DNA of 23,109 nt, taken from a virus. A model generated the notes under the pieces. It was not told the origin of the DNA and searched no databases. It saw nothing but the letters and a program-made list of their open reading frames with translations. A program made the translations under genes and the position numbers. Of this stretch, positions 1 to 16,756 are shown piece by piece (the stretch's first letter is position 1; every line of letters starts with the position of its first letter). The DNA is taken from IMG/VR virus record IMGVR_UViG_3300032524_000310, positions 1 to 23,109 of that record. One strand, given 5' to 3'.

Positions 1-115
1 CAACAACCCGAATTGAAGAGCTCAAGTCCGAATGCGAGATAGTCAAAAGCACCAGGAGACCATCATCGGTCTCCTGTGAAAACATGGCCGTTTGCATTTC
101 CGTACTTAGGGTCAC
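1..115 (-). CDS. DUF1833-like phage tail protein, N-terminal part
   Basis: Only the first 38 codons are in the window; the gene runs off the left edge. It begins with a GTG at 115-113 whose GTGA overlaps the TGA stop of the preceding minor tail gene by 4 nt, a typical coupled start. The peptide begins VTLSTEMQTAMFSQETDDG and continues LLVLLTISHSDLSSSIRVV. An N-terminus of the type '(T/A)AxFxQET...(L)VLLTIxHxDL...IRVV' is what I know from DUF1833 proteins, which sit directly after the tape measure and minor tail protein in many siphoviruses and probably build the tail tip. An internal ATG (codon 7) is an alternative start. Family assignment rests on a short piece and the gene order. Confidence 0.72.
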   Translation of the reverse strand, partial: MTLSTEMQTAMFSQETDDGLLVLLTISHSDLSSSIRVV

Positions 116-483
116 GGCAGCTTCTCCAACGGTAAGATAAGAATATACGTATTATATCCTGAAGGTGTAACCGGGTCTGGGGTTTTTGCAAAACCATAAG
201 TATCTGTGCTGCCGGTCCTTGGGTTGGTCATCGTGAAACTCAAAGAGCCAAAAGCTACCCCACCAACTGCATCGGCGGTATCCTCGAACCACGTTTTAAA
301 AATATCAACCTGGGCACTCGTAAGCTCGACCGGGTAAGTGTTCGGTTCAGGAGCTGCGGTGGAACGCATACGCTTCTTCTTTGGGCCGATATCCATTTGC
401 GAACGTTGGACAACATCCTTGAAGCCTTCACTGAAGCCATCCCGTAATACAAACTGAGGAAGTGTTGCAGGCCAACTAGCCAT
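112..483 (-). CDS. Minor tail protein (tail tip region), 123 aa
   Basis: This small protein directly follows the tape measure gene and shares one base with its stop (ATG at 483-481). A GGAGG ribosome binding site lies 7 nt upstream. Its N-terminus (MASWPATLPQ), a central 'RSQMDIGPKKKRMRSTAAPEP' region, an 'LTSAQVDIFKTWFEDT' helix and a C-terminal 'PRTGSTDTYGFAKTP...LILPLEKLP' β segment match a family commonly found between the tape measure and the DUF1833 protein of siphoviruses. By position it would form part of the distal tail or tail tip, comparable in place to lambda gpM. No catalytic motif is visible. The tail location is an inference from synteny, and the exact role is unknown. Confidence 0.75.
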   Translation of the reverse strand: MASWPATLPQFVLRDGFSEGFKDVVQRSQMDIGPKKKRMRSTAAPEPNTYPVELTSAQVDIFKTWFEDTADAVGGVAFGSLSFTMTNPRTGSTDTYGFAKTPDPVTPSGYNTYILILPLEKLP

Positions 484-2927
484 TATGTCCTCCGCACCAA
501 TGTAGCTTTTGAACCAAAGCGGTTTTTCATAGCGCCATCAAATTGACCGCCAGCAATTTGCCGCTTAACCGTATCGCGGATCATAATCGTAATTTGCTTA
601 CGGCCATCCCCGGTAACACCTTCTTCAACACCCACTGGTTCGGCGTCGCCGTCGCTACGCTGGTCAAATACCTGCACAACAACTCCACCTCCGCCGCCTC
701 CGCCTCCCCCACTACGCGACATTGAAGCAGGAGGCGCTGAGCTTCCTAACGAATTATCATTGATGGCCTGCAGCAGCGGCAGGAACTTACTCGCTGACAT
801 CGCGTTGACAACGAATTCACCATTAGACAACCGAGCGTTTACCAGATCGTCCGTGGGCCCACCGGGACCGGAAACCATACCACCCGTGGCGAATGGCGTC
901 CCTGCCCCGACTGCAGATGCCCCTGGGGTTATCGCAGCGATACCTGATCCAGCTGAAGGTGAAAAGAAATTACTCAACATGTTGGACAAAGGCCCAGTGA
1001 TGGCGGTGCGAATTTGGATGCGAATGAGGTCGGAAATAATACTGTCCGCAAGAGATTTAAAGTCGAGCTTGCCGGTCTGCACAAACTTGACCAGGGCATC
1101 TTCCATTCCCTGGAAAGCATTTGTAACAGATGTTTCTGCCAACGTGGCGAAGTCATCAAAGTCTTTTGCAGTTTTCAACAGCCCACGTTCGAAGCCGGAA
1201 GACAAGTCCGTCTGGGTTTCCAAAAACGCTAACCGTAAGTCCCGCAACTCATCGGCTGTCTTGGCAATTTCTCCCGGTTTGGGGGCAATATTGATTTTTA
1301 AAGGTTCCTTGGTTACGCCCTTCAGAAAACTTAAAACCTTATTGAGTGTCTCAACCTGCGCTGTCATTTTGGTAACAGCCTCTGAACCGGGGGAGATAAA
1401 TTCCTGAATGAGCAACCGTTGGCTGATCTCGCCCTTTAGTTTTTTAATACGATCGCCGAAATCAGTAAGTTGCTCCTTGGTCATGTTGGAAAACCCACCG
1501 AGCTTTTCAACTTCGGCCGACAGATTTGCCATTGCATTACCAAATTCTTGGACCTTGCCAATAGGGTTAGCGATTTCCTCAAAGACCCCAACAATAGATG
1601 TCTTCAACTCATTGAAAGTTTCCTCAATGGACTTACCATTGGCGGCAGCCACCGCAGCCATAATCGAAAAGGATGCTATGGCTGCAGAGGCGAGCAGAGG
1701 AAGGGTACGAGCGGAAAGGGCAAACATGGCTGCCCCAAGTTTCTTAAGACTGCTGAGCAGAAGGACGAGGGCACCCTGTACCAACTTAACCGTAATGACT
1801 GCGGACAATGCGGCCAGGGCTGTGGCTAATATGTCGGCATTGGAGGCAATGATGCGCAACAGGGTAGCCAGCCGTTCGAAGATCACGCGCAGGCTATTTT
1901 CCCCACCAGCTTGGCCCAGGGAGAGTGTAACACTTTCAAACGCCGACTTGACCCGCAGCAGTGCACCGTTAAGGTTGTCATCCATGACGGCGGCAACCTT
2001 CTTGGCCGTACCCGCAGCATTGATATTTTCCTGATTGAGTTCTTTCAACCGGGCAACATTATCTTTTAAAATCAACAGGGATGTGGCCTGCCGGACACCA
2101 ACCAGTGCCGCAGCATCTGCCAAGCCAATATTCTTTTCCCGGAGGAGTTCAATGACTGGGATCAAACCCTTTGACTTTACGTTCAGGTCAGAAACATTAA
2201 GCCCCATCTTCTCAATTACCTTCCGAGCTTTTGCCGTCGGAGATATTAGTTGGATGAAGATTTGCCGCAACCCGGTACCCGCCCTGGTGGCTTGGACGCC
2301 AGCATCAGATAAAACGCCCACGGAGGCAGCAGCAAGCTCAGCCTCCACGCCGATGGCCTTGGCAGCTGGAGCCGCGAAACTCATCGCCTGACCTAACTGC
2401 TCAACATCGGTGTTGGCACTATTAGCAGTGTTGGCCAAGATGTCAACAATACGTTCTGTACTGTCCGCCTCAAGGCCAAAACCTTTAATCACGTTGGAGG
2501 CGATATCCGCCGCACGAGCCAGCTCCAACGCCCCAGCTTGGGCCAGGTTGAGTGTATGGGGGATGGCCTGCAGCACTTCGTTGGCGTCGAAGCCTGCACG
2601 TGCCAAGAACGTCATACCATCGGCAGCTTGGGTGGCCGTGAACCTGGTTGTTGCACCCAACTGCTGGGCTGCCTCGTTCATCTCAATAAATTGGGCGGTG
2701 GTGGCACCAGAAACCGCCTTGACCGTAGACATGGCCTGGGCAAAATCTGCCATGGTCCGCACGGCACCAGTAAGTGCCAATGCGCCGCCAAGAAGTCCCA
2801 AGGCACGGCTGAGGAGCTGGACCGAGCCTTGGGCTCCCTTGGCGCTTGTGCCGATATTCCGGATGTTCCGGGATACCGTACGAGCACCACGTGATGAGAC
2901 CTGAATTTGAATTCTTTCCTGGACCAT
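483..2927 (-). CDS. Tail length tape measure protein (TP901 type), 814 aa
   Basis: This is the longest gene in the window. Residues about 50-270 carry the core of phage tape measure proteins of the TP901 family, including segments such as 'LGATTRFTATQAADGMTFLARAGF', 'SVGVLSDAGVQATRAGTGLRQIF' and repeated alanine-rich helices. Residues about 360-430 form long hydrophobic stretches that could span a membrane, as expected of a protein ejected with the DNA. Near residue 745 is a run of nine glycines, followed by a compact C-terminal segment. The protein fixes tail length and occupies the tube lumen; at the known rule of about 1.5 Å per residue, 814 aa suggests a tail near 120 nm. The start follows the gp10-like gene's TAA directly (TAAATG), with AAGGTGG upstream. 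Confidence 0.95.
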   Translation of the reverse strand: MVQERIQIQVSSRGARTVSRNIRNIGTSAKGAQGSVQLLSRALGLLGGALALTGAVRTMADFAQAMSTVKAVSGATTAQFIEMNEAAQQLGATTRFTATQAADGMTFLARAGFDANEVLQAIPHTLNLAQAGALELARAADIASNVIKGFGLEADSTERIVDILANTANSANTDVEQLGQAMSFAAPAAKAIGVEAELAAASVGVLSDAGVQATRAGTGLRQIFIQLISPTAKARKVIEKMGLNVSDLNVKSKGLIPVIELLREKNIGLADAAALVGVRQATSLLILKDNVARLKELNQENINAAGTAKKVAAVMDDNLNGALLRVKSAFESVTLSLGQAGGENSLRVIFERLATLLRIIASNADILATALAALSAVITVKLVQGALVLLLSSLKKLGAAMFALSARTLPLLASAAIASFSIMAAVAAANGKSIEETFNELKTSIVGVFEEIANPIGKVQEFGNAMANLSAEVEKLGGFSNMTKEQLTDFGDRIKKLKGEISQRLLIQEFISPGSEAVTKMTAQVETLNKVLSFLKGVTKEPLKINIAPKPGEIAKTADELRDLRLAFLETQTDLSSGFERGLLKTAKDFDDFATLAETSVTNAFQGMEDALVKFVQTGKLDFKSLADSIISDLIRIQIRTAITGPLSNMLSNFFSPSAGSGIAAITPGASAVGAGTPFATGGMVSGPGGPTDDLVNARLSNGEFVVNAMSASKFLPLLQAINDNSLGSSAPPASMSRSGGGGGGGGGVVVQVFDQRSDGDAEPVGVEEGVTGDGRKQITIMIRDTVKRQIAGGQFDGAMKNRFGSKATLVRRT

Positions 2928-3332
2928 TTACTTCACCACCTTAGACCGACGAATAAAATTCGTGGCAGTCTGAACCGCTTGCTCAACGAAGTTGGCAGGA
3001 GCCTGGGCCGATGAGCCATCATTCAACTTACCTATGTATGGCAGGTTATTGCTCAGAAAGATAGTTTGCCCTGATTTTGCACCACTGATTTTTGAATTGT
3101 TGGCGCTAATTCGGCCAGCGCCAGACTTATCCGTCTCAGTACTATCCCCCGTGATGGGCGAACCTACAGAAGCAAACCAATTACCCCGTGCACGTCCGGT
3201 GTCCACAGGGGTGGCAGAAATAACGGTTTGGTTGATAAGAATGGCAGTCTTGCGGACAGTGGCATCGACATTCTTCTCCACACGATCCCCAATGGCACGA
3301 ATACGGCGCGCAAATGTTTTTAAGTCAGCCAT
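2928..3332 (-). CDS. HK97 gp10-like tail completion protein, 134 aa
   Basis: The reading frame is open further upstream, but the best start is the ATG at 3332-3330, giving MADLKTFARRIRAIGDRVEK. That start overlaps the stop of the frameshifted chaperone (ATGGCTGA) by 8 nt and is preceded by AGAAGAAAG. The family signature is clear: an N-terminal helix, 'ISATPVDTGRARGNW' (residues 39-52), 'IFLSNNLPYIGKLNDGSSAQAP' (91-112) and 'NFVEQAV' (114-120). These small proteins act at the head-tail joint or tail completion step. Usually the gene lies before the tail terminator; here it sits between the chaperones and the tape measure, which is unusual. A longer 178-aa start would put about 44 unrelated residues in front and is rejected. 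Confidence 0.88.
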   Translation of the reverse strand: MADLKTFARRIRAIGDRVEKNVDATVRKTAILINQTVISATPVDTGRARGNWFASVGSPITGDSTETDKSGAGRISANNSKISGAKSGQTIFLSNNLPYIGKLNDGSSAQAPANFVEQAVQTATNFIRRSKVVK

Positions 3333-4076
3333 CTTTCTTCTGCTTCCAATCCCTAAACGTCTCATCCATGCGGGTAATATAGTAGTGAAGGTCCTCCGTT
3401 TGGTCGTCGTTAAATTCATAGACCTTGGCGTACTCGTGCATTGCCATCCATGAAATTGGACCATCCCCCATGCCGGTACGGCACGAGGTCAAGTCCATAA
3501 ATGCCCCGTAATATAATTCAAGCCCAAGGTAAAGCTCTGGCGCATTTTTAATTTTATTCGGGAGAGGCAGACGATCCCGCCTGCACTGCTCCAGAATTTT
3601 CTTTTCAGTCGGTCCCTGCTCTAGCGCATAGAGCAGGACCGAAGTCAGTTTCCCGCATTGGCCTCTTGGATGGACGCAAGGAACAATGCCATTTTACTGG
3701 CCTGCTCCTGTAAGTCCATGAAGATGTCCGGCAGGTTTTTCAGGGTCAATTCAACATTGTCGGCGTTGAACGGAAGCGGCTTGTCGCCTTCTTCGGCTTC
3801 GATGCCGACCTTGAATTTTCCATCGACCTTGGTTTCCCAATTCAGGACAATGGTTTCTGCGTAAACCCTACGCAGAATTTCCAGGGCCAAGTCCGGGTCC
3901 ATCGTGTCAGTTTGGATGGCACGGTTATGGGGCTTGGTGCGGGATGCTAGCAATTTTGCGAATTTCTTATTCGCGCCACCAGCACGTCCAACAGTTACCC
4001 GGAAATCACCATAGTCAATGATGATGCCTCCACGCTCAAGGTCAGGATCGGTCTTAAATTTTTCGTACATAGACAT
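3325..4076 (-). CDS. Tail assembly chaperone GT, -1 frameshift product, 250 aa
   Basis: Ribosomes that slip back one base on G GGA AAC (3654-3648) avoid the TGA stop at 3647-3645 and read on in the -1 frame to TGA at 3327-3325. The product is the 143-aa G part plus 107 residues beginning LTSVLLYALEQGPTEK. The extension contains 'YYGAFMDLTSCRTGMGDGPISW' and ends 'MDETFRDWKQKKDG', a pattern typical of the T extension of phage chaperones ('GPT...ILxxxRR...GPIxW'). GT binds the tape measure and recruits tail tube subunits during tail assembly, and is absent from the virion. The extension has no good start of its own directly after the G stop, which supports frameshifting rather than a separate gene. 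Confidence 0.9.
3609..3654 (-). promoter_or_regulatory. Programmed -1 ribosomal frameshift signal
   Basis: On the minus strand the slippery heptamer GGGAAAC lies at 3654-3648 in the correct phase (G GGA AAC). After a 5-nt spacer a stem-loop follows: left arm 3642-3629 (TCGGTCCTGCTCTA), loop TGCGC (3628-3624), right arm 3623-3609 (TAGAGCAGGGACCGA). Fourteen pairs form, with one bulged G. The zero-frame stop TGA is within the spacer. This is the classical arrangement of a bacterial -1 frameshift site: X XXY YYZ, short spacer, stable hairpin. Confidence 0.93.
3645..4076 (-). CDS. Tail assembly chaperone G (unshifted product), 143 aa
   Basis: This is the normal-frame product of the chaperone gene, ending ANAGN at a TGA placed immediately after the slippery heptamer. 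It follows the tail tube gene and has an AGAGGAG ribosome binding site 6-7 nt before the ATG. The protein is small, mixed α/β, without a signal peptide or membrane segment. Features such as 'LALEILRRVYAETIVLNWETKVDG' and 'FNADNVELTLKNLPDIFMDLQEQASK' fit the group of G-like chaperones whose C-terminal part resembles 'AxxIL.....W.V.D.dG' segments. G and GT are normally made in a ratio set by slippage, with G in large excess. Identification rests on position, the frameshift signal and the nature of the extension. Confidence 0.9.
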   Translation of the reverse strand: MSMYEKFKTDPDLERGGIIIDYGDFRVTVGRAGGANKKFAKLLASRTKPHNRAIQTDTMDPDLALEILRRVYAETIVLNWETKVDGKFKVGIEAEEGDKPLPFNADNVELTLKNLPDIFMDLQEQASKMALFLASIQEANAGN

Positions 4077-4105
4077 AGGCTTGCTCCTCTAAAGTTTGCC
4101 TGGTT

Positions 4106-5650
4106 TTAGACGTCAGCCACCGTAGGCAGATAGTCAAAGAACACCATCAAAGCGGTGTGGTCGAGATTGGCATCGATAGCGGCACCAGTCGCGGCTGCCA
4201 TGGTAAGCGGCAACGTGATTGGCTGGTCCTGCTCAACATTCGGTCGGCCATCGCCCAGAGAGATAAGCGGCAGGTCCATAACGACACCCGAATTGTCTTT
4301 CACGATTGCAAAGTCCATCGTGATATCAACGTTGTTGCGAACGGCAGTCACTGCCGAAACGTCTGCAAAGTAGGCTGTGATACTTCCACCAACCTCAAAG
4401 GTGCCGGCAGTCGCTTCAAAAGCTCCCAGGGTACCAACAGCCTTGGACGCCGAAACGTTGTTGTTGATGGTGATGGTAATTTCCTGAGCGAAGGCGAAGA
4501 GTGCCGTTGGTGCTTCAGTGCCGTCCGTATGCTGAGCCAGCTTGATACGCGAGAAGTCCGAGCTGGTATTGAAGGCGTCGCTTTCGGTCAAGGCCGGACG
4601 AGTGCCAGCCTTGAGGGAAGTCGGACCATCAATGGTGGAGCTGCCCGCTCCCACAAAGCTAAGATCGACCGTCAGCTTATCGCCAGTCGGTATATTGAAG
4701 CTGGCTTCATTGGGCACCTGGCCTTCCAGGTATTCAGCCTGGATATTGGCAGGGGAAGCATCGTCCGGAGCACCCAAGGTGCGTTCCAGATTGTAGGTCC
4801 GGCGAACGATAGAAGTGCTGACACTTTCGTTCTTGAGAACACGGCCAAAGTACATTTCCAAAAGTATAGCCGTGCCGGTTTCCGTAACCATGGCCGCATC
4901 CGACTTATCAAATTCCAAGCGGTTCGCGGCGATGGTGCGGATACGCTTGAAACCATTATTGCCGGCATTAACAAAATCGGAGCTGGCCGTATCCCCACCT
5001 ATAAAGATAAACTCACCAACGATTAGGCCGAGGGTGGTAAAGTCCAAGATGGTAGAGGTAAGAGCCGGGAAGGTGAGGGTGGCATCAACGTCGATATCGG
5101 CGGAGGCACCAACATGACCAACCACGGTAATTTGCGCAGTGGCCGGAGGTGAAACCTCGGTGGTCAAAACGCCATCGGCGACTTCCACGGAAACATCGGT
5201 CACAATCGCTGTTACTTCATTGACGGTGTTGTTGCCGGCATTGGTGAAATTGGAGCCTTCAATAAGGCTACCGACGAGGAAACCTGCGGTGGCGGCGACT
5301 TCATATTCGTCCGGGTTGGCAGTATCAATGTCGACGGCGGTGACAAGCTCTTCCCCCTTGGGCCGGAGATCGGCGAAGAAAAAGCCCTGCAGCAAATCTT
5401 CCAGGTTCGTCTGGGTAAGGTCGGTATTGAAACCGCCCGAAGCATCCAGGTCCGTTACAACACCCTTCTTGCGCTGGCGTCCGTCATTGATCGGGTTGCG
5501 AGCCACCGTGGTGATGGAGCCGCCGAAGTCCGAATAGGAATTCGGTTCCAGTGGGTTCCAAACTTCTGAACCACCCACCGTGTTAAAGGACGTTTCCTCG
5601 GCATAACGAAGTCCGGTGGCATTGCTATCAATTTTGTTAACCGCAGTCAT
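4106..5650 (-). CDS. Major tail tube protein with internal repeat insert, 514 aa
   Basis: The N-terminus (MTAVNKIDSNATGLRYAEET, then 'GSEVWNPLEPNSYSDFG' and 'RNPINDGRQRKKGVVTDLDASGGF') is that of the phage tail tube family often labelled TTP_2; about 300 residues is usual for simple tube proteins, so 514 is long. The extra length is explained by two similar segments, residues about 103-160 and 201-255, each with a 'VG(S/E)xI...F(T/V)NAGNN' core. They look like duplicated β modules that would decorate the outside of the tube. The C-terminus ends in a β-rich segment with 'LDHTALMVFFDYLP'. AGGAG precedes the start. The gene lies between tail terminator and chaperones, the standard position. Subunits polymerise around the tape measure. 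Confidence 0.88.
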   Translation of the reverse strand: MTAVNKIDSNATGLRYAEETSFNTVGGSEVWNPLEPNSYSDFGGSITTVARNPINDGRQRKKGVVTDLDASGGFNTDLTQTNLEDLLQGFFFADLRPKGEELVTAVDIDTANPDEYEVAATAGFLVGSLIEGSNFTNAGNNTVNEVTAIVTDVSVEVADGVLTTEVSPPATAQITVVGHVGASADIDVDATLTFPALTSTILDFTTLGLIVGEFIFIGGDTASSDFVNAGNNGFKRIRTIAANRLEFDKSDAAMVTETGTAILLEMYFGRVLKNESVSTSIVRRTYNLERTLGAPDDASPANIQAEYLEGQVPNEASFNIPTGDKLTVDLSFVGAGSSTIDGPTSLKAGTRPALTESDAFNTSSDFSRIKLAQHTDGTEAPTALFAFAQEITITINNNVSASKAVGTLGAFEATAGTFEVGGSITAYFADVSAVTAVRNNVDITMDFAIVKDNSGVVMDLPLISLGDGRPNVEQDQPITLPLTMAAATGAAIDANLDHTALMVFFDYLPTVADV

Positions 5651-5664
5651 GGGTTTTCTCCTGG

Positions 5665-6090
5665 TTACTTAACTTCGTCATAGGTGAAATCAATTAAAAC
5701 ATTAACTTGGTACCAGTCACCATCTGGACCAATCTCATTAACCCTGGCGTTACGGAACCAAACACCATTGGCGGTGGCCGTTCCTTCAAATGCGTCGGTG
5801 ATGATCTTAGCAAGATTGTGGGCTTCGAGCAAGCCTTCTCCTGCAGGGGTGAAAATTTGAATGGTTAGGATGCCGGCTCTGCTGTAGCGAGCAGTACCCA
5901 AACCACCCGTAAGGGAGGCTTGGTTACCAGTAACATGCTGTAACGTTACTCGCGCCCAAGGGTCGGAGCCGGTGGGGGGTTTCTGCGGGGTGGCAACGTT
6001 TGTATAAACGGCATCCCAGCCGGTCGTGTCCCAAGCAGTCTTGAACACGCCTAAAATATCGTCCGTCGCTTGGGCATACGTCGCGGTCAT
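5665..6090 (-). CDS. Tail terminator protein (DUF4128-like), 141 aa
   Basis: The protein begins with a helix (ILGVFKTAWD) and continues with 'WARVTLQHVTGNQASLTGG...YSRAGILTIQIFTPAGEGLLEAHNLAKIITDAFEG', the usual pattern of tail terminator or tail-to-head joining proteins of the lambda gpU/DUF4128 group. It caps the finished tail tube and provides the surface that joins the head. Its ATG overlaps the stop of the head closure gene by 4 nt (ATGA, 6090-6087), with GGGGTGAGG upstream, so translation is probably coupled. The tail tube gene follows after a 14-nt gap. No unusual features were seen. The identification depends on pattern and gene order rather than a diagnostic catalytic residue. Confidence 0.8.
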   Translation of the reverse strand: MTATYAQATDDILGVFKTAWDTTGWDAVYTNVATPQKPPTGSDPWARVTLQHVTGNQASLTGGLGTARYSRAGILTIQIFTPAGEGLLEAHNLAKIITDAFEGTATANGVWFRNARVNEIGPDGDWYQVNVLIDFTYDEVK

Positions 6091-6479
6091 CGCCTCACCC
6101 CAACATAACTAAGCATCACCGAGCTACCCGGCTTCAGCGTTTGCACCCCAACAATTTTCCATTGCGTGCTGTCGTCCGTTACCTCATTAAAGATACGCAA
6201 GTCCACAGCAGCTCCTGGAGAAACAACCATAATCTGTTCCGACCGTTTTAGCAAGTCACTGGTTTCCGCCTTCAAGCCCAAGGAGGCAGCCCCTGCTGGG
6301 CTAACAAAAACGGCATCCACCGTCAACGTACTATCCGGTGTTGTACGAGGATCAGTTGGGCCAAGCCAGGGTTTGGCTCCGTCGGTGGGGGTGCTATCAA
6401 ATTGCACAAACGTAACCGACCGACCATTTTCCGTAATGAGCCGTTGGGCCGTTGCAATAAGGGAAGCTGTCTCAACCAC
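6087..6479 (-). CDS. Head closure / stopper-like protein, 130 aa
   Basis: The gene starts with GTG at 6479-6477, preceded by GGAGGGG; the first codons read GTG GTT GAG. The start overlaps the connector gene's TGA by 8 nt. The sequence 'AQRLITENGRSVTFVQFDSTPTDGAKPWLGP', followed by 'SDLLKRSEQIMVVSP...DSTQWKIVGVQTLKPGSSVMLSYVGVRR', resembles small β-barrel head closure proteins found between the connector and the tail terminator in many siphoviruses. Such proteins plug the portal after DNA packaging and form the head side of the head-tail joint. Assignment is by this pattern and by its position, and is less certain than for the terminases or tape measure. Confidence 0.72.
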   Translation of the reverse strand: MVETASLIATAQRLITENGRSVTFVQFDSTPTDGAKPWLGPTDPRTTPDSTLTVDAVFVSPAGAASLGLKAETSDLLKRSEQIMVVSPGAAVDLRIFNEVTDDSTQWKIVGVQTLKPGSSVMLSYVGVRR

Positions 6480-7329
6480 GAATTACCCCTCCACCTGGTG
6501 TAATGTACTCCGACAATAGCCTGTCGGCAGCCGGATAGACACGAATGATATTGCTGGCGGCACCACCTTCCTCATACTGGGTATCCGTTTCGATTGGGCC
6601 AACCTTTTCCTTTTTACGAACCACTGCCTTGCCGGTGTCGTCGTAGGTCGGGTCGGGCATAAGATTGGTGGACGTGGAAACGGCGCGCACGGCATATTCG
6701 GCGGTGGCCTGCTTGAGCTTTGCCGGGATACCATAAACGTATTGGCCATCGCGGTCGACCAAGTTGATCCTCGGGAAGGACAAAGGCTGAGGGATTGCAA
6801 CATCACTCCCACCCACCAGGGTGGTGCTGCTCCAGGAGCCTCCTGTAACGGTCGTTACGGTGGTGATATCGTTGCCGGGGGTGCCGGTGACCACGCTTTC
6901 CAGCAGCATTGTGTCGCCAGCCTCTGCCGTCGCGGTAACGGTTGCGGAAAGGGAAGCGGCGATCGCCGTTACGAGGTTGTCAATACTTTCCTCGGTATCG
7001 GCTCCGATCGCTACCCCACTATCGAAGGTAAAGGTGGTGCCGTTGATGACAACCGTTTCCGTGGTCAGGGGGTTGGCCGTAAAGGTCAGTGTCGCCCTGG
7101 CGGTTGAAATGTCAATGAATTCCTTACGCCCAATGAAGCGTTGGCCCCAACGTTGCTCGATAAAGTCAGTGGCGGCGATGATCGCGGCTTCTTTGGCAGC
7201 AGTGGCGGCAGTGGACCAAAGGTTCTCCGCCTCACGGTTGCGGTCGGTCAGGTAGGTATCGACCTCCGCCTCTGTGGTATAGGCATTGGCCCCACTAACT
7301 CCGGTACCGTCTTCAATAATCATGGTCAT
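6472..7329 (-). CDS. DnaT-like head-tail connector with inserted domain, 285 aa
   Basis: The ends of this protein match the phage 'DnaT-like ssDNA-binding' family, which by position acts as a head-tail connector: 'DGTGVSGANAYTTEAEVDTYL' at the N-terminus, 'FIEQRWGQRFIGRKEF' (residues 56-71), then 'PLSFPRINLVDRDGQ' from residue 182 and 'KVGPIETDTQY' further on. In the usual family the second block follows the first closely. Here about 100 residues (about 76-176) are inserted: a β-rich module with 'VVINGTTFTF', 'TEESIDNLVTAIAASL' and 'TGTPGNDITT...TTLVGG'. A related module occurs in the 273-aa protein at 14743-15564. The start has AAGGAAATAAATT before ATG; a second ATG two codons later is possible. 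The true role is structural; the DnaT name is historical. Confidence 0.82.
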   Translation of the reverse strand: MTMIIEDGTGVSGANAYTTEAEVDTYLTDRNREAENLWSTAATAAKEAAIIAATDFIEQRWGQRFIGRKEFIDISTARATLTFTANPLTTETVVINGTTFTFDSGVAIGADTEESIDNLVTAIAASLSATVTATAEAGDTMLLESVVTGTPGNDITTVTTVTGGSWSSTTLVGGSDVAIPQPLSFPRINLVDRDGQYVYGIPAKLKQATAEYAVRAVSTSTNLMPDPTYDDTGKAVVRKKEKVGPIETDTQYEEGGAASNIIRVYPAADRLLSEYITPGGGVIRG

Positions 7330-7340
7330 AATTTATTTCC

Positions 7341-8084
7341 TTACGAAATTCTTTCTAACTCACCAAAAAAGCCAGCAGAAACAAGGGCAGCTTTATCAGT
7401 ATCGCACTGAAATCCAATTACCACACCAGAAGAAATAGTAAAAGGGGGTATATTACTTATTGCAAGACTAAGGTCCTGAACACCAACAGCAGCGAAAGGT
7501 ATCATTAAGCCATCCTGGGTATAGTCGTGCGCGTCTAAAACTGTTGTAAAAAATCGTACAACTACCCTTGCGGCAGCAGTACCACTAATTCCTCCGCCAT
7601 ACATTGCTACAATTCTTAACTTATAATTATTAGGTACCATTCGTGCAGACGATGAGTTTCGAATTTTATTTGCTGCAATTTGCCCGTAAGTAGTACCACT
7701 ATTTGTGGCAGTGACTATACCAGCTGTTTGCTTGGTAGCCCCAAATGTTTCTAAATGCATTGCATTAATAAAACGAATATCAGTAGCATTTGTAAGAACT
7801 GGTGTTAGCCCTTCAAGAAAAATTTGTTCTATTTGTTGGTCCAGGTTGACATCTAGGTAATGAATTTCGATACTTTGCGCACCTGTTCCTGCATCCTTAT
7901 CATCGTTTGCACTGGTGCTAACAAAAGTCATTTGCAAACCAGTTTCAGGGGGAACATTTAAATCAGGGCCATCTGGCCAAACAAGATGATTAGTAACAGC
8001 ACCAGCTACATCTAGCTCCCCGTAGGAACTAAATTGCGTGGCATTTGGGCCACGATAGCCACCATATGCACCAGAAAGAGACAT
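7341..8084 (-). CDS. Virion structural protein, 247 aa (AT-rich gene)
   Basis: The gene is visibly richer in A and T than its neighbours. The protein starts with a glycine-rich segment ('MSLSGAYGGYRGPNATQFSSYGELDV') and continues with 'SIEIHYLDVNLDQQIEQIFLEG...NATDIRFINAMHLETFGATKQTAGIVTATNSGTTYGQIAANK'. The pattern 'atDIRFIxxMHxxTxGxxKxAxGxItatNgGttYxqI' followed by 'SSARMVPxNYKLRIVAMYGGGISGTAA' is one I recognise from virion proteins of other phages, without a firm function. It is β-rich, with no signal peptide or transmembrane helix. Placed among capsid, connector and LamG-like genes, it may be a capsid surface fibre or decoration. The preceding gene's stop is 2 nt from its start. Confidence 0.6.
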   Translation of the reverse strand: MSLSGAYGGYRGPNATQFSSYGELDVAGAVTNHLVWPDGPDLNVPPETGLQMTFVSTSANDDKDAGTGAQSIEIHYLDVNLDQQIEQIFLEGLTPVLTNATDIRFINAMHLETFGATKQTAGIVTATNSGTTYGQIAANKIRNSSSARMVPNNYKLRIVAMYGGGISGTAAARVVVRFFTTVLDAHDYTQDGLMIPFAAVGVQDLSLAISNIPPFTISSGVVIGFQCDTDKAALVSAGFFGELERIS

Positions 8085-12773: not shown

Positions 12774-12986
12774 ATGACTACCTTCTACGCAATTAAAAAA
12801 CCTTCCCCCTACGGCGACAGCTTTGTTCGCGCAAGCGGCGACGACTATAAAGGGATGGGACCTTGCCCGACCCTCTTCAGCAGGAAGGAACGTGCTGAAA
12901 CGGTTATCGCCAACTACAAATGGATTTCCAAGAATTCCGGAAAGCCTGCTTCCACCCTTGAAATCATCGAAGTGGAGATCGGATAA
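12774..12986 (+). CDS. Small hypothetical protein, 70 aa, island 1 first gene
   Basis: I do not recognise this protein. It is the first gene behind the island 1 promoter, with AAAAGGAG 8 nt before the ATG. The sequence starts MTTFYAIKKPSPYGDSFVRA, has a short central 'GPCPTLFSRKERAETVIANYKW' segment and an acidic β-like end (ASTLEIIEVEIG). The arrangement 'PTLFxxKERAExVIxxY' and a final β strand suggests a small α/β fold. There is no membrane segment. Its stop overlaps the next start by one base (TAATG), so the two genes are probably translated together. Function unknown; an accessory role in infection is an inference from position. Confidence 0.78.
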   Translation: MTTFYAIKKPSPYGDSFVRASGDDYKGMGPCPTLFSRKERAETVIANYKWISKNSGKPASTLEIIEVEIG

Positions 12987-13225
12987 TGGGTATCGAACTT
13001 AAGTCCATCAATAACGCTTCCCCTCGCTGCATCGATATTTATAAAAGCGGGTGGACCCCAGCATCCCCCTGGTGCGCCGATGTTATTTTCGAGGATGGTC
13101 GTTCCTGGCCTGCATGGCAACAATCCTTTCGCACTAAAACTGCGATGGTGAAAAATATCAATACAGCTCTTGACAGTGTTGGTCTCCCAGACCTCCCCAT
13201 CATAAGGGTCAAGGACAAAGAATAA
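12986..13225 (+). CDS. Small hypothetical protein, 79 aa
   Basis: I do not recognise this family. The ATG overlaps the stop of the previous gene (TAATG), which argues for coupled translation. The protein is a compact α/β sequence: 'IELKSINNASPRCIDIYKSGW', 'ASPWCADVIFEDGRSWPAWQQSF' and a C-terminal helix 'TKTAMVKNINTALDSVGLPDL'. It has two cysteines (C15, C30) and several tryptophans but no clear metal-binding pattern. It is the last gene before the 198-nt structured spacer carrying two hairpin copies. Function unknown. Confidence 0.75.
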   Translation: MGIELKSINNASPRCIDIYKSGWTPASPWCADVIFEDGRSWPAWQQSFRTKTAMVKNINTALDSVGLPDLPIIRVKDKE

Positions 13226-13256
13226 TAATTAACCCCACCTGCGGACAACCCGCCCA

Positions 13257-13388
13257 CTCCCCGGAGCCTGTGAGAAGGTGGCCGGGGGTAAGGGGTGTAG
13301 GAACAAGGAGACTGTCATGAATATCGAGGGCTAAATCCCTCCCGCTCCCCGGAGCCTCTTCAATGAGGTGGCCGGGGGTAAGGGGTGT
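13257..13388 (+). repeat. Twin hairpin element in island 1 leader region
   Basis: Two copies, 13257-13298 and 13345-13388, share CTCCCCGGAGCCT on the left and AGGTGGCCGGGGGTAAGG then GGTGT on the right. Only the hairpin loop differs: GTGAGA in copy 1, CTTCAATG in copy 2. Each can fold with CCCCGG pairing CCGGGG and GCCT pairing AGGT; in copy 2 an extra C-G pair forms. The distal GGGGTGT could compete for the same CTCCCC. There is no U-tract, so these are not ordinary terminators. They enclose a five-codon frame with a strong ribosome binding site (13317-13334). The remainder of 13226-13423 holds no gene. Confidence 0.85.
13317..13334 (+). CDS. Possible five-residue leader peptide MNIEG
   Basis: AAGGAG lies 7 nt before an ATG that opens a five-codon frame, MNIEG, ending in TAA. 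The stop lies in the loop of a small hairpin (GAGGG-ctaaat-CCCTC, 13326-13341). The frame sits between the two copies of the hairpin element. It may be translated as a leader peptide that changes folding of the second copy and thus expression of the HTH gene at 13424. The evidence is the ribosome binding site and its setting only. Confidence 0.35.
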   Translation: MNIEG

Positions 13389-13423
13389 GAACTTTTTATA
13401 CTTAAAAATGGAGAACCAGTGTT

Positions 13424-13714
13424 ATGAAGAACCATCAAAAAGTCGGCACCAGCCACCTGCAAAGGGCCATGGATGAATTTGGCCTCAACAAGTCCGAACT
13501 CAGCGCTGCCCTGGGTATGAGCAATGGCTTTGTATCCACCTGTATGAGCGCTAACGAAGCACCGGCCTGGTCGCAGTTGGCTGTTGAATGCCTCTTCCGC
13601 CGTCAGGGCAAACACAAAGGTGAAGTCACCCTCATCATCAAAGTTCCCGGCTCCAAAAAAGAAGCCGTCACCTCTTTCCTTGACGCCCTGGGCATTGCTG
13701 CCTCGGTCGTCTAA
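13424..13714 (+). CDS. Small HTH DNA-binding protein, 96 aa
   Basis: Residues about 12-42 (LQRAMDEFGLNKSELSAALGMSNGFVSTCM) have the pattern of a helix-turn-helix: a first helix, 'LNKSELSAALGMSNGFVS' as the turn and recognition helix. This resembles Cro/XRE-type small DNA-binding proteins. The C-terminal part has a β strand (GEVTLIIKVPG) and a helix (KEAVTSFLDALGI) that may serve dimerisation. The gene follows the twin hairpin region; ATGGAGA lies before the ATG, and TATACT (13399-13404) resembles a -10 box, though without a clear -35. It is the only recognisable regulator in the window and a candidate controller of the island promoters or structural operons; its target is unknown. Confidence 0.72.
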   Translation: MKNHQKVGTSHLQRAMDEFGLNKSELSAALGMSNGFVSTCMSANEAPAWSQLAVECLFRRQGKHKGEVTLIIKVPGSKKEAVTSFLDALGIAASVV

Positions 13715-13723
13715 TCCTGCGAC

Positions 13724-13750
13724 GGGGACTTGGTAAGGTACCAAGTCCCC
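13724..13750. other. 12-bp perfect hairpin between island 1 genes
   Basis: GGGGACTTGGTA and TACCAAGTCCCC are exact reverse complements separated by AGG. The stem lies 9 nt after the HTH gene and 22 nt before the next start. No U-run follows (AGAGCGCATC), so it is unlikely to be an intrinsic terminator. It may protect or process the mRNA, or be a DNA palindrome bound by the neighbouring HTH protein. Confidence 0.75.
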
Positions 13751-16160: not shown

Positions 16161-16325
16161 GTGAAGAAAGTCATCCAAATCATCGAGACTGCAACCGATC
16201 GTGTCGAACACGAAATTGACGTTACCGGCCAGAGCGAGCGTTCAATTGAACGTACCGAAGATGGGGTAAACATTAATCTCAATCATGAACAATTTCATAC
16301 CAATGTAACTGAGGTGGAAGAATGA
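16161..16325 (+). CDS. Small hypothetical protein, 54 aa, GTG start
   Basis: The best start is GTG at 16161, immediately after the previous TGA, with GGGGGAAGTGAG ahead; the longer open frame upstream overlaps the previous gene. The protein reads VKKVIQIIETATDRVEHEID, then VTGQSERSIERTEDGVNINL and a short end. I recognise its pattern ('xKVIxIIExATxxVxxxIDVTGxSERxIxRxEdGxNINLNHxxF') from small accessory proteins in many phages, whose function I cannot name. It is a compact β-type protein. Its stop overlaps the next start by 4 nt (ATGA). Confidence 0.68.
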   Translation: MKKVIQIIETATDRVEHEIDVTGQSERSIERTEDGVNINLNHEQFHTNVTEVEE

Positions 16326-16756
16326 CCGACATAGAAGAAACATGGATTTATTATGGGGTTGTTAAGTTGAATGGTGGCGGCCATGGCCACAAGTTCATCC
16401 CCCTTGTTGAAGGGAAACTTGATCTTGACAACACCAGCATATTTGGAATGGGCAAGGGTTGGAGAACCTTTACCGTGGGAGGACATTACCGTGTCACGTT
16501 AGTGAACAAAGGCCAGTCGGTAAGTGGCTCCCCCAAATGGAACGGGAGTATGTGGAAGGACACCGAACTGGTAGCCCAATGGGGTGCTTCCTCCAAAGCC
16601 ATTGAAGGTGCAAAGCGGTTAGCTGCCAGAGAGAAAAAGCTCAAGGACGATCCTCTCAGGGAGGCCCTTGATCCAATTAGGCGAGCCATGCGTGGGGCCA
16701 GCGACCCAGAAAGGGCTGTGCTTTTATCTTGGGTGGTGAAGGAGTTGCTGAAATGA
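16322..16756 (+). CDS. Hypothetical protein, 144 aa
   Basis: Function not recognised. The ATG overlaps the previous stop (ATGA) and GAGGTGGAAG lies ahead. The N-terminal half is β-rich ('TWIYYGVVKLNGGGHGHKFIPLVEGKLDL', 'GWRTFTVGGHYRVTLVNKGQSVSGSPKWNGSMWKDTELVAQW'), and the C-terminal half is helical and charged ('SSKAIEGAKRLAAREKKLKDDPLREALDPIRRAMR', 'ERAVLLSWVVKELLK'). A β domain followed by a basic helical domain could suit a nucleic acid or protein adaptor, but this is speculative. Its stop overlaps the next ATG by 4 nt. Confidence 0.75.
   Translation: MTDIEETWIYYGVVKLNGGGHGHKFIPLVEGKLDLDNTSIFGMGKGWRTFTVGGHYRVTLVNKGQSVSGSPKWNGSMWKDTELVAQWGASSKAIEGAKRLAAREKKLKDDPLREALDPIRRAMRGASDPERAVLLSWVVKELLK

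Follow-up and report, generated by a model that had tools for sequence, protein, structure and literature searches.

Two copies of a previously undescribed structured RNA family between genes of a viral contig

The early region of phage T7 carries RNase III sites, irregular hairpins that lie between cistrons and occur several times over. Phage-only repeats are known from the Cluster K mycobacteriophages, where SAS and ESAS, always in one orientation, precede numerous non-structural genes that are unrelated to each other. The 13-bp SAS motif doubles as the ribosome site, and for the ESAS inverted repeats the authors saw little support for RNA pairing (PMC3203893). Under the name RTS, stable mRNA structure has been described just past stop codons, close to where a terminating ribosome has its edge; its proposed role is to insulate the next start from re-initiation, and it is seen statistically, as a folding signal that has no sequence in common (PMC7518266). 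In phage HK022, put is an RNA of ~70 nt with two stem-loops that acts without a dedicated protein; each genome has two such sites, located behind the early promoters, and their effect extends over 10 kb (PMC9378689).

The stretch of virus DNA analysed here (the window) comprises the 23,109 bases of IMG/VR record IMGVR_UViG_3300032524_000310. It contains two copies of a structured repeat, copy 1 at 13257-13298 (42 nt) and copy 2 at 13345-13388 (44 nt), whose sequence difference is confined to the hairpin loop; with an apical stem of GCCTC/GAGGT against GCCT/AGGT in copy 1, copy 2 has one C-G pair more. An earlier reading of the sequence alone had described this pair of near-identical copies, their loop-only differences and the additional C-G pair, together with a strong ribosome binding site between them, all of which was borne out. 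Including the 5' hairpin P1 of each, the full units run from about 13234 to 13300 and from about 13322 to 13390. The small hairpin that had been noted around the stop codon of the five-codon frame MNIEG is present; it is P1 of copy 2, and hence part of the element, and that each copy has a P1 of its own had been missed. Coordinates are collected in Table 1. No match was returned by a PHROG search with the 96-aa gene behind copy 2. The portal, major head and terminase genes of the window are all on the minus strand, and the closest relatives of the portal among those listed are from Pseudomonas phages, e.g. PaMx25 (53% identity).

Table 1. Positions of the element and its surroundings in the window and, in the last row, of short sub-family members in other contigs
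Feature	Position	Strand	Basis or remark
Upstream ORF	12986-13225	+	gene before copy 1
Spacer, 15 nt, from upstream stop codon to P1 of copy 1	13226-13240	+	family gap mostly 12-17 nt, mode 13
Copy 1 P1 hairpin GCGG-ACAAC-CCGC	13241-13253	+	P1 pairs covary over 83 copies
Copy 1 conserved unpaired CC(A) and linker	13254-13258	+	C at alignment columns 26, 27, 29 in 81-82/83 copies
Copy 1 P2 CCCCGG/CCGGGG, internal loop A13265 / G13280-G13281; P2a GCCT/AGGT, loop GTGAGA	13259-13287	+	sequence, family covariation, RNAalifold
Copy 1 linker GTAA and conserved tail GGGGT	13288-13296	+	tail G80, G83, T84 in 77, 79, 81/83 copies
Shine-Dalgarno site AAGGAG behind copy 1	13305-13310	+	ribosome site and start after 75/83 family copies
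Five-codon frame MNIEG (ATG AAT ATC GAG GGC TAA)	13317-13334	+	stop inside copy 2 P1 loop; not family-wide
Copy 2 P1 hairpin GAGGG-CTAAAT-CCCTC	13326-13341	+	sequence, family covariation
Copy 2 P2 CCCCGG/CCGGGG, A13353 / G13370-G13371; P2a GCCTC/GAGGT, loop TTCAAT	13347-13377	+	sequence, covariation
Copy 2 linker GTAA and tail GGGGT	13378-13386	+	sequence, column conservation
GGAG ribosome site of gene behind copy 2	13410-13413	+	sequence
Downstream gene, 96 aa, weakly similar to phage CI / Xre-type HTH domains	13424-13714	+	Pfam E 0.003-0.005, below curated cut-offs
Short sub-family members	L015 7134-7196; L030 4591-4653; L104 1482-1544; L109 1916-1978; L380 11422-11483		

Two further features of the window were recorded. 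A perfect 12-bp hairpin (GGGGACTTGGTA / TACCAAGTCCCC, 3-nt loop) is found at 13724-13750, starting 9 nt past the HTH gene's stop codon and lying ahead of the next ribosome site; it has no T run and is a plain stop-proximal hairpin in the next junction. On the minus strand, ARAGORN placed a tRNA-Gly at 16522-16603, overlapping the plus-strand ORF 16322-16756, a call that may be false.

Both window copies are members of a previously undescribed family of structured RNAs of ~70 nt. An initial search that used just the window's own sequence had given chance matches only. When the core pattern CCCCGGAGCC-N3..20-GGTGGCCGGGG was derived from the window copies, it was found in 31 IMG/VR virus contigs, 30 of which carried the full unit of a variable 4-bp hairpin, CCC(A/G), core and GG.GU tail; the match in contig L016 was judged to be due to chance and left out of the alignment. 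Covariance model R1, applied to the pattern-matched contigs, revealed extra copies invisible to the pattern, and the set was enlarged with looser core patterns and with patterns built from P1 alone. The P1-only scans are an unbiased test of P2: 12 new contigs were gained, every one with a P2 partner, among them the variants CCCAGG/CCTGGG (L299), CCCTGG/CCAGGG (L298), GGCGGG/CCCGCC (L354) and GCCTCCG/CGGAGGC (L291), as well as apical stems of AGC/GCU in L355, L380 and L392. Scanning with CCGGAYCAAGCGCCGG gave 107 contigs, mostly by chance, and supplied two short-variant members that lack the apical stem. The final alignment, A5, holds 83 distinct copies from 59 loci, namely 58 virus contigs and one alphaproteobacterial MAG. 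Phage contigs have one to six copies, grouped within a few kilobases and mostly on the same strand. In the window, the covariance model scored 66 bits (E 1.3e-15) for one copy and 48.5 bits (E 7e-11) for the other, the next-best match reaching 9.3 bits; both copies had sat in its training set, so that these scores are partly by construction and independent support comes from the further copies elsewhere.

The family folds as RNA into helices P1 and P2/P2a, and certain of its unpaired nucleotides are invariant. Across the 83 copies of A5, standard pairs occupied 98.3% of pair cells versus 79.4% after shuffling, and 145 two-sided changes were observed versus 39.8; such compensatory changes were seen in 11 of 13 pairs, and none of 500 shuffles reached the observed values. 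RNAalifold returned the identical structure unaided, and in a free column scan for covariation the pairs of P1, P2 and P2a ranked highest. The sequence-only reading had proposed a possible new RNA regulatory element, and had named the lack of further copies and of covariation as what would count against it; what was found instead is a family of 83 copies with strong covariation.

From 5' to 3', the architecture consists of the short hairpin P1, an unpaired CCC(A/G), and stem P2, which is interrupted by the internal loop A/GG and capped at its tip by GNRA or UMAC in most copies; a GG(C/G)GU tail follows. P1 has 4 bp and a loop of usually 4-6 nt, and C26, C27 and C29, which follow it, are nearly invariant. 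In most copies P2 comprises 6 bp or more; its terminal G-C pair is invariant, and its mean pair probability in predicted ensembles is 0.93. In the internal loop, the 5'-side A occurs in 75/83 copies, the two 3'-side Gs in 78 and 83 of 83. Of 78 apical loops on P2a, 46 are GNRA and 9 UMAC (together 55), and the tail reads GGCG in 53/83 copies. The pair that opens P2a is G.U in 69/83 copies; because the opposite strand would have an A.C mismatch at this place, the sense RNA is taken to be the functional molecule.

An alternative fold, in which the conserved flank pairs with CTCCCC, had also been suggested from the window. As a general feature, pairing of the tail with the 5' strand of P2 was rejected, being impossible for the 53/83 tails that are GGCG, and the 3' strand of P1 with CCC fits the tail better. 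For this candidate helix, P3, the predicted energy of pairing between a tail and its own upstream strand was −9.43, versus −8.46 ± 0.19 for swapped tails (0/2000), in a test that does not remove relatedness among copies. Column covariation for P3 was weak (83.2% paired versus 81.3% shuffled, 48/500). In predicted ensembles, P1 and P3 were mutually exclusive, with P3 favoured in 51 of the 83 copies, P1 in 27 and both in 4. A two-state switch between P1 and P3 is thus plausible but not proven.

Two kinds of structural variant were observed. In a short sub-family (L030, L015, L104 and L109, with L380 similar), P2a is replaced by a short loop, A-YCAAGC-G; these copies have CCGCA for CCCA and mostly GCGG for GGCG in the tail, a paired change compatible with P3. 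An extra variable hairpin (GTGCGGG...CCCGCAC) lies between tail and ribosome site in L022 (2823-2890 and 3197-3264), L003 (5261-5331) and L029 (2728-2796).

The distribution of the family was followed through several databases. Taking a covariance score at or above the family gathering cut-off as the criterion for membership, Rfam 15 had no match in the window, where a search allowing E up to 10 returned nothing beyond chance matches below threshold, in agreement with the earlier remark that the element fits no known class; at the loci of eight other members no relevant Rfam 15 match was seen. At the sensitivity used, blastn matched nothing in PLSDB or among 50,697 phage records. A core-plus-tail pattern was then run against 84,980 bacterial and archaeal genomes, where the model accepted one of 72 matches, L243, in an alphaproteobacterial MAG; the remainder were set aside as chance, and the five next-best, inspected individually (L262, L253 twice, L261, L233), look like chance. 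The same pattern found 40 stretches in virus contigs, all of them recognised by the model. A model search of 385 plus 369 whole genomes, at reduced sensitivity and for the 369 without a positive control, returned only the L243 MAG. In two member contigs the terminase has its closest relatives in Rhizobium and Caulobacter phages, which makes proteobacterial hosts likely. Limited searching of the literature found no description of the element, which is not proof of absence.

The position of the element relative to genes is strict. P1 mostly starts 12-17 nt past the stop codon of the same-strand upstream gene, with a mode of 13; stop codons in any frame amounted to 11.8 per position at gaps of 12-16 nt, versus 2.6 at 20-60 and 1.7 at 0-9. 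Composition upstream is that of coding sequence up to the stop codon, followed by a C/A-rich, G-poor spacer. No AT-rich, -10/-35-like promoter signature was seen upstream of the copies, and a promoter reading was dropped for that reason. Behind 75/83 copies, a ribosome site and start codon follow 14-60 nt past the tail. By inspection, no conserved anti-SD segment that would sequester the ribosome site was seen; predicted SD accessibility was intermediate (mean 0.49), and there were no U-rich terminators behind the copies that were read individually.

The genes behind the copies encode, among others, helicase, RecT-like and Sak4-like proteins, serine recombinases, resolvase/integrase, pentapeptide and DUF932 proteins, as well as numerous small unknowns, so that control by or of the HTH gene is not supported as a general feature. 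As the same families are found upstream of the element in other phages, it is bound neither to one downstream gene nor to one upstream gene, and marks gene-cassette junctions rather than one gene. Pentapeptide-repeat protein genes adjoin it in several unrelated contigs (L028 12700-13404, L065 4173-4580, L084 3805-4404), and one lies upstream of it in L243 (about 2592-3000, minus strand). Flanking by the same families on either side is also what would be expected of a repeat acting as DNA, either a recombination seam or a protein-binding site between cassettes. We consider this barely credible: compensatory changes in both helices, the conserved G.U pair and the GNRA loops speak against it, and constant orientation to the genes and a fixed stop-codon distance, together with the covariation, require RNA. 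The variety of downstream genes counts against a metabolite riboswitch or self-cleaving ribozyme of a new class, as does the presence of several copies in one phage. Conserved unpaired nucleotides around a compact fold and two mutually exclusive helices would suit such an RNA, but neither conserved sequestration of the ribosome site nor, behind the copies read, a terminator was seen, nor any Rfam riboswitch or ribozyme match, and we regard this reading as quite improbable.

In the fetched stretches of the 59 loci, no phage-encoded partner common to all was found, the most widespread protein family occurring at 9/59 loci only. This bears on the main rival, a put-like nascent-RNA antiterminator, which would bind host RNA polymerase and allow read-through of Rho-dependent or intrinsic terminators in early operons; placement at the stop codon would then only keep ribosomes from unfolding it. 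A phage-specific RNA of ~70 nt with two hairpins and conserved unpaired bases, among early genes and with no phage protein shared by the stretches fetched, is in keeping with such a role, and Rho could load on the C-rich, G-poor spacer ahead of P1. These are gene-junction elements, however, up to six per phage and without a promoter signature, whereas put is promoter-linked and occurs twice per genome; moreover, no U-rich terminators lie behind the copies read, and model R2 found nothing in HK022 24000-34000, the early region, in a one-sided comparison for which no put model was built. By analogy, put-like antitermination may apply, though we consider it doubtful.

The intercistronic setting, with several copies per early region and an irregular hairpin with an asymmetric internal loop, could also be read as a site for RNA processing or mRNA stability, comparable to the T7 RNase III sites, at which a nuclease cut would divide the early transcripts into single-gene messages. 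For this purpose the uninterrupted duplex is short, at about 11-16 bp including the internal loop, and it is the unpaired bases that are conserved, although RNase III substrates can do without these; nor did R2 match the T7 early region (1-8000). We judge a processing site to be improbable.

The twin arrangement in the window, with copies 88 nt apart and a tiny frame between them, is unusual and not defining for the family. A comparable pair of copies in L028 encloses the tiny frame MTRT. The linker and tail shared by the window copies suggest duplication or homogenisation. With its strong ribosome site and a stop codon inside the P1 loop of copy 2, MNIEG would melt that hairpin when translated, and in the window phage a leader-peptide attenuator might work in this manner, ribosomes on MNIEG deciding the fold before the HTH gene; the MTRT frame offers a parallel. 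A leader peptide had been put forward from the window, but as a general feature it is not supported: tiny frames follow just 3/83 copies (MNIEG, and MTRT and MNS in L028), their codons are not conserved, and the usual follower of a copy is a full gene. Relatives of the HTH gene were sought for conservation of MNIEG and none were found. Attenuation, even in the window phage, is therefore very unlikely.

The reading that we favour, with about even confidence and on the strength of sequence comparison, is that of a cis-acting, sense-strand, intercistronic RNA of uncultured phages that would control the gene behind it mainly at the post-transcriptional level, with a host factor as the probable mediator. 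The spacing of ~13 nt would set P1 just beyond a ribosome terminating on the upstream gene, such that the RNA could fold undisturbed and hold terminating ribosomes off the next start. The invariant A/GG loop, CCC and GG(C/G)GU tail would be read by a trans factor; invariance of loop and tail implies a specific receptor, and a host factor (ribosome, RNA-binding protein or RNA polymerase) is the more likely one because no common protein family was found in the fetched stretches. Against this reading stand the weak column covariation of P3, the lack of conserved sequestration of the ribosome site, the changing gene neighbours on both sides and the need to postulate a receptor at all, as sequence conservation of this kind would be superfluous in a plain insulator. 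More tentatively, we suggest that a two-state intercistronic RNA, placed by the upstream stop codon, may engage a host machine (ribosome or RNA polymerase) directly and set expression gene by gene across unrelated proteobacterial phages.

A well-supported structured-RNA family is thereby added where current libraries see nothing, along with a strict placement rule of stop codon, about 13 nt and P1. If the favoured reading is confirmed, diverse phages would share an RNA part, not a protein, for setting expression in early operons, and the element would be a ready-made part for gene tuning in synthetic operons. It would also become testable whether natural stop-proximal structures insulate or control the next gene.

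Compared with the systems described, the element shares its intercistronic setting with the T7 RNase III sites, which differ in having no conserved unpaired core. With put it has in common a length of about 70 nt, two stem-loops, action in cis and occurrence in early phage operons, but it is intercistronic, lies ~13 nt past a stop codon and is present up to six times per phage. As with SAS and ESAS, these are phage-specific repeats ahead of many unrelated genes. The SAS 13-mer GGGATAGGAGCCC was absent, as a ribosome site 3-7 bp before the start, from the listed starts, and model R2 had no match in 12 kb of Anaya; unlike SAS/ESAS, the element shows strong pairing covariation, lies clear of the ribosome site and takes its position from the upstream stop codon. 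RTS resembles it in being stable structure directly downstream of a stop codon (P1 mostly at 12-17 nt, P2 pair probability 0.93), whereas the present family is a specific one in which certain unpaired bases are invariant.
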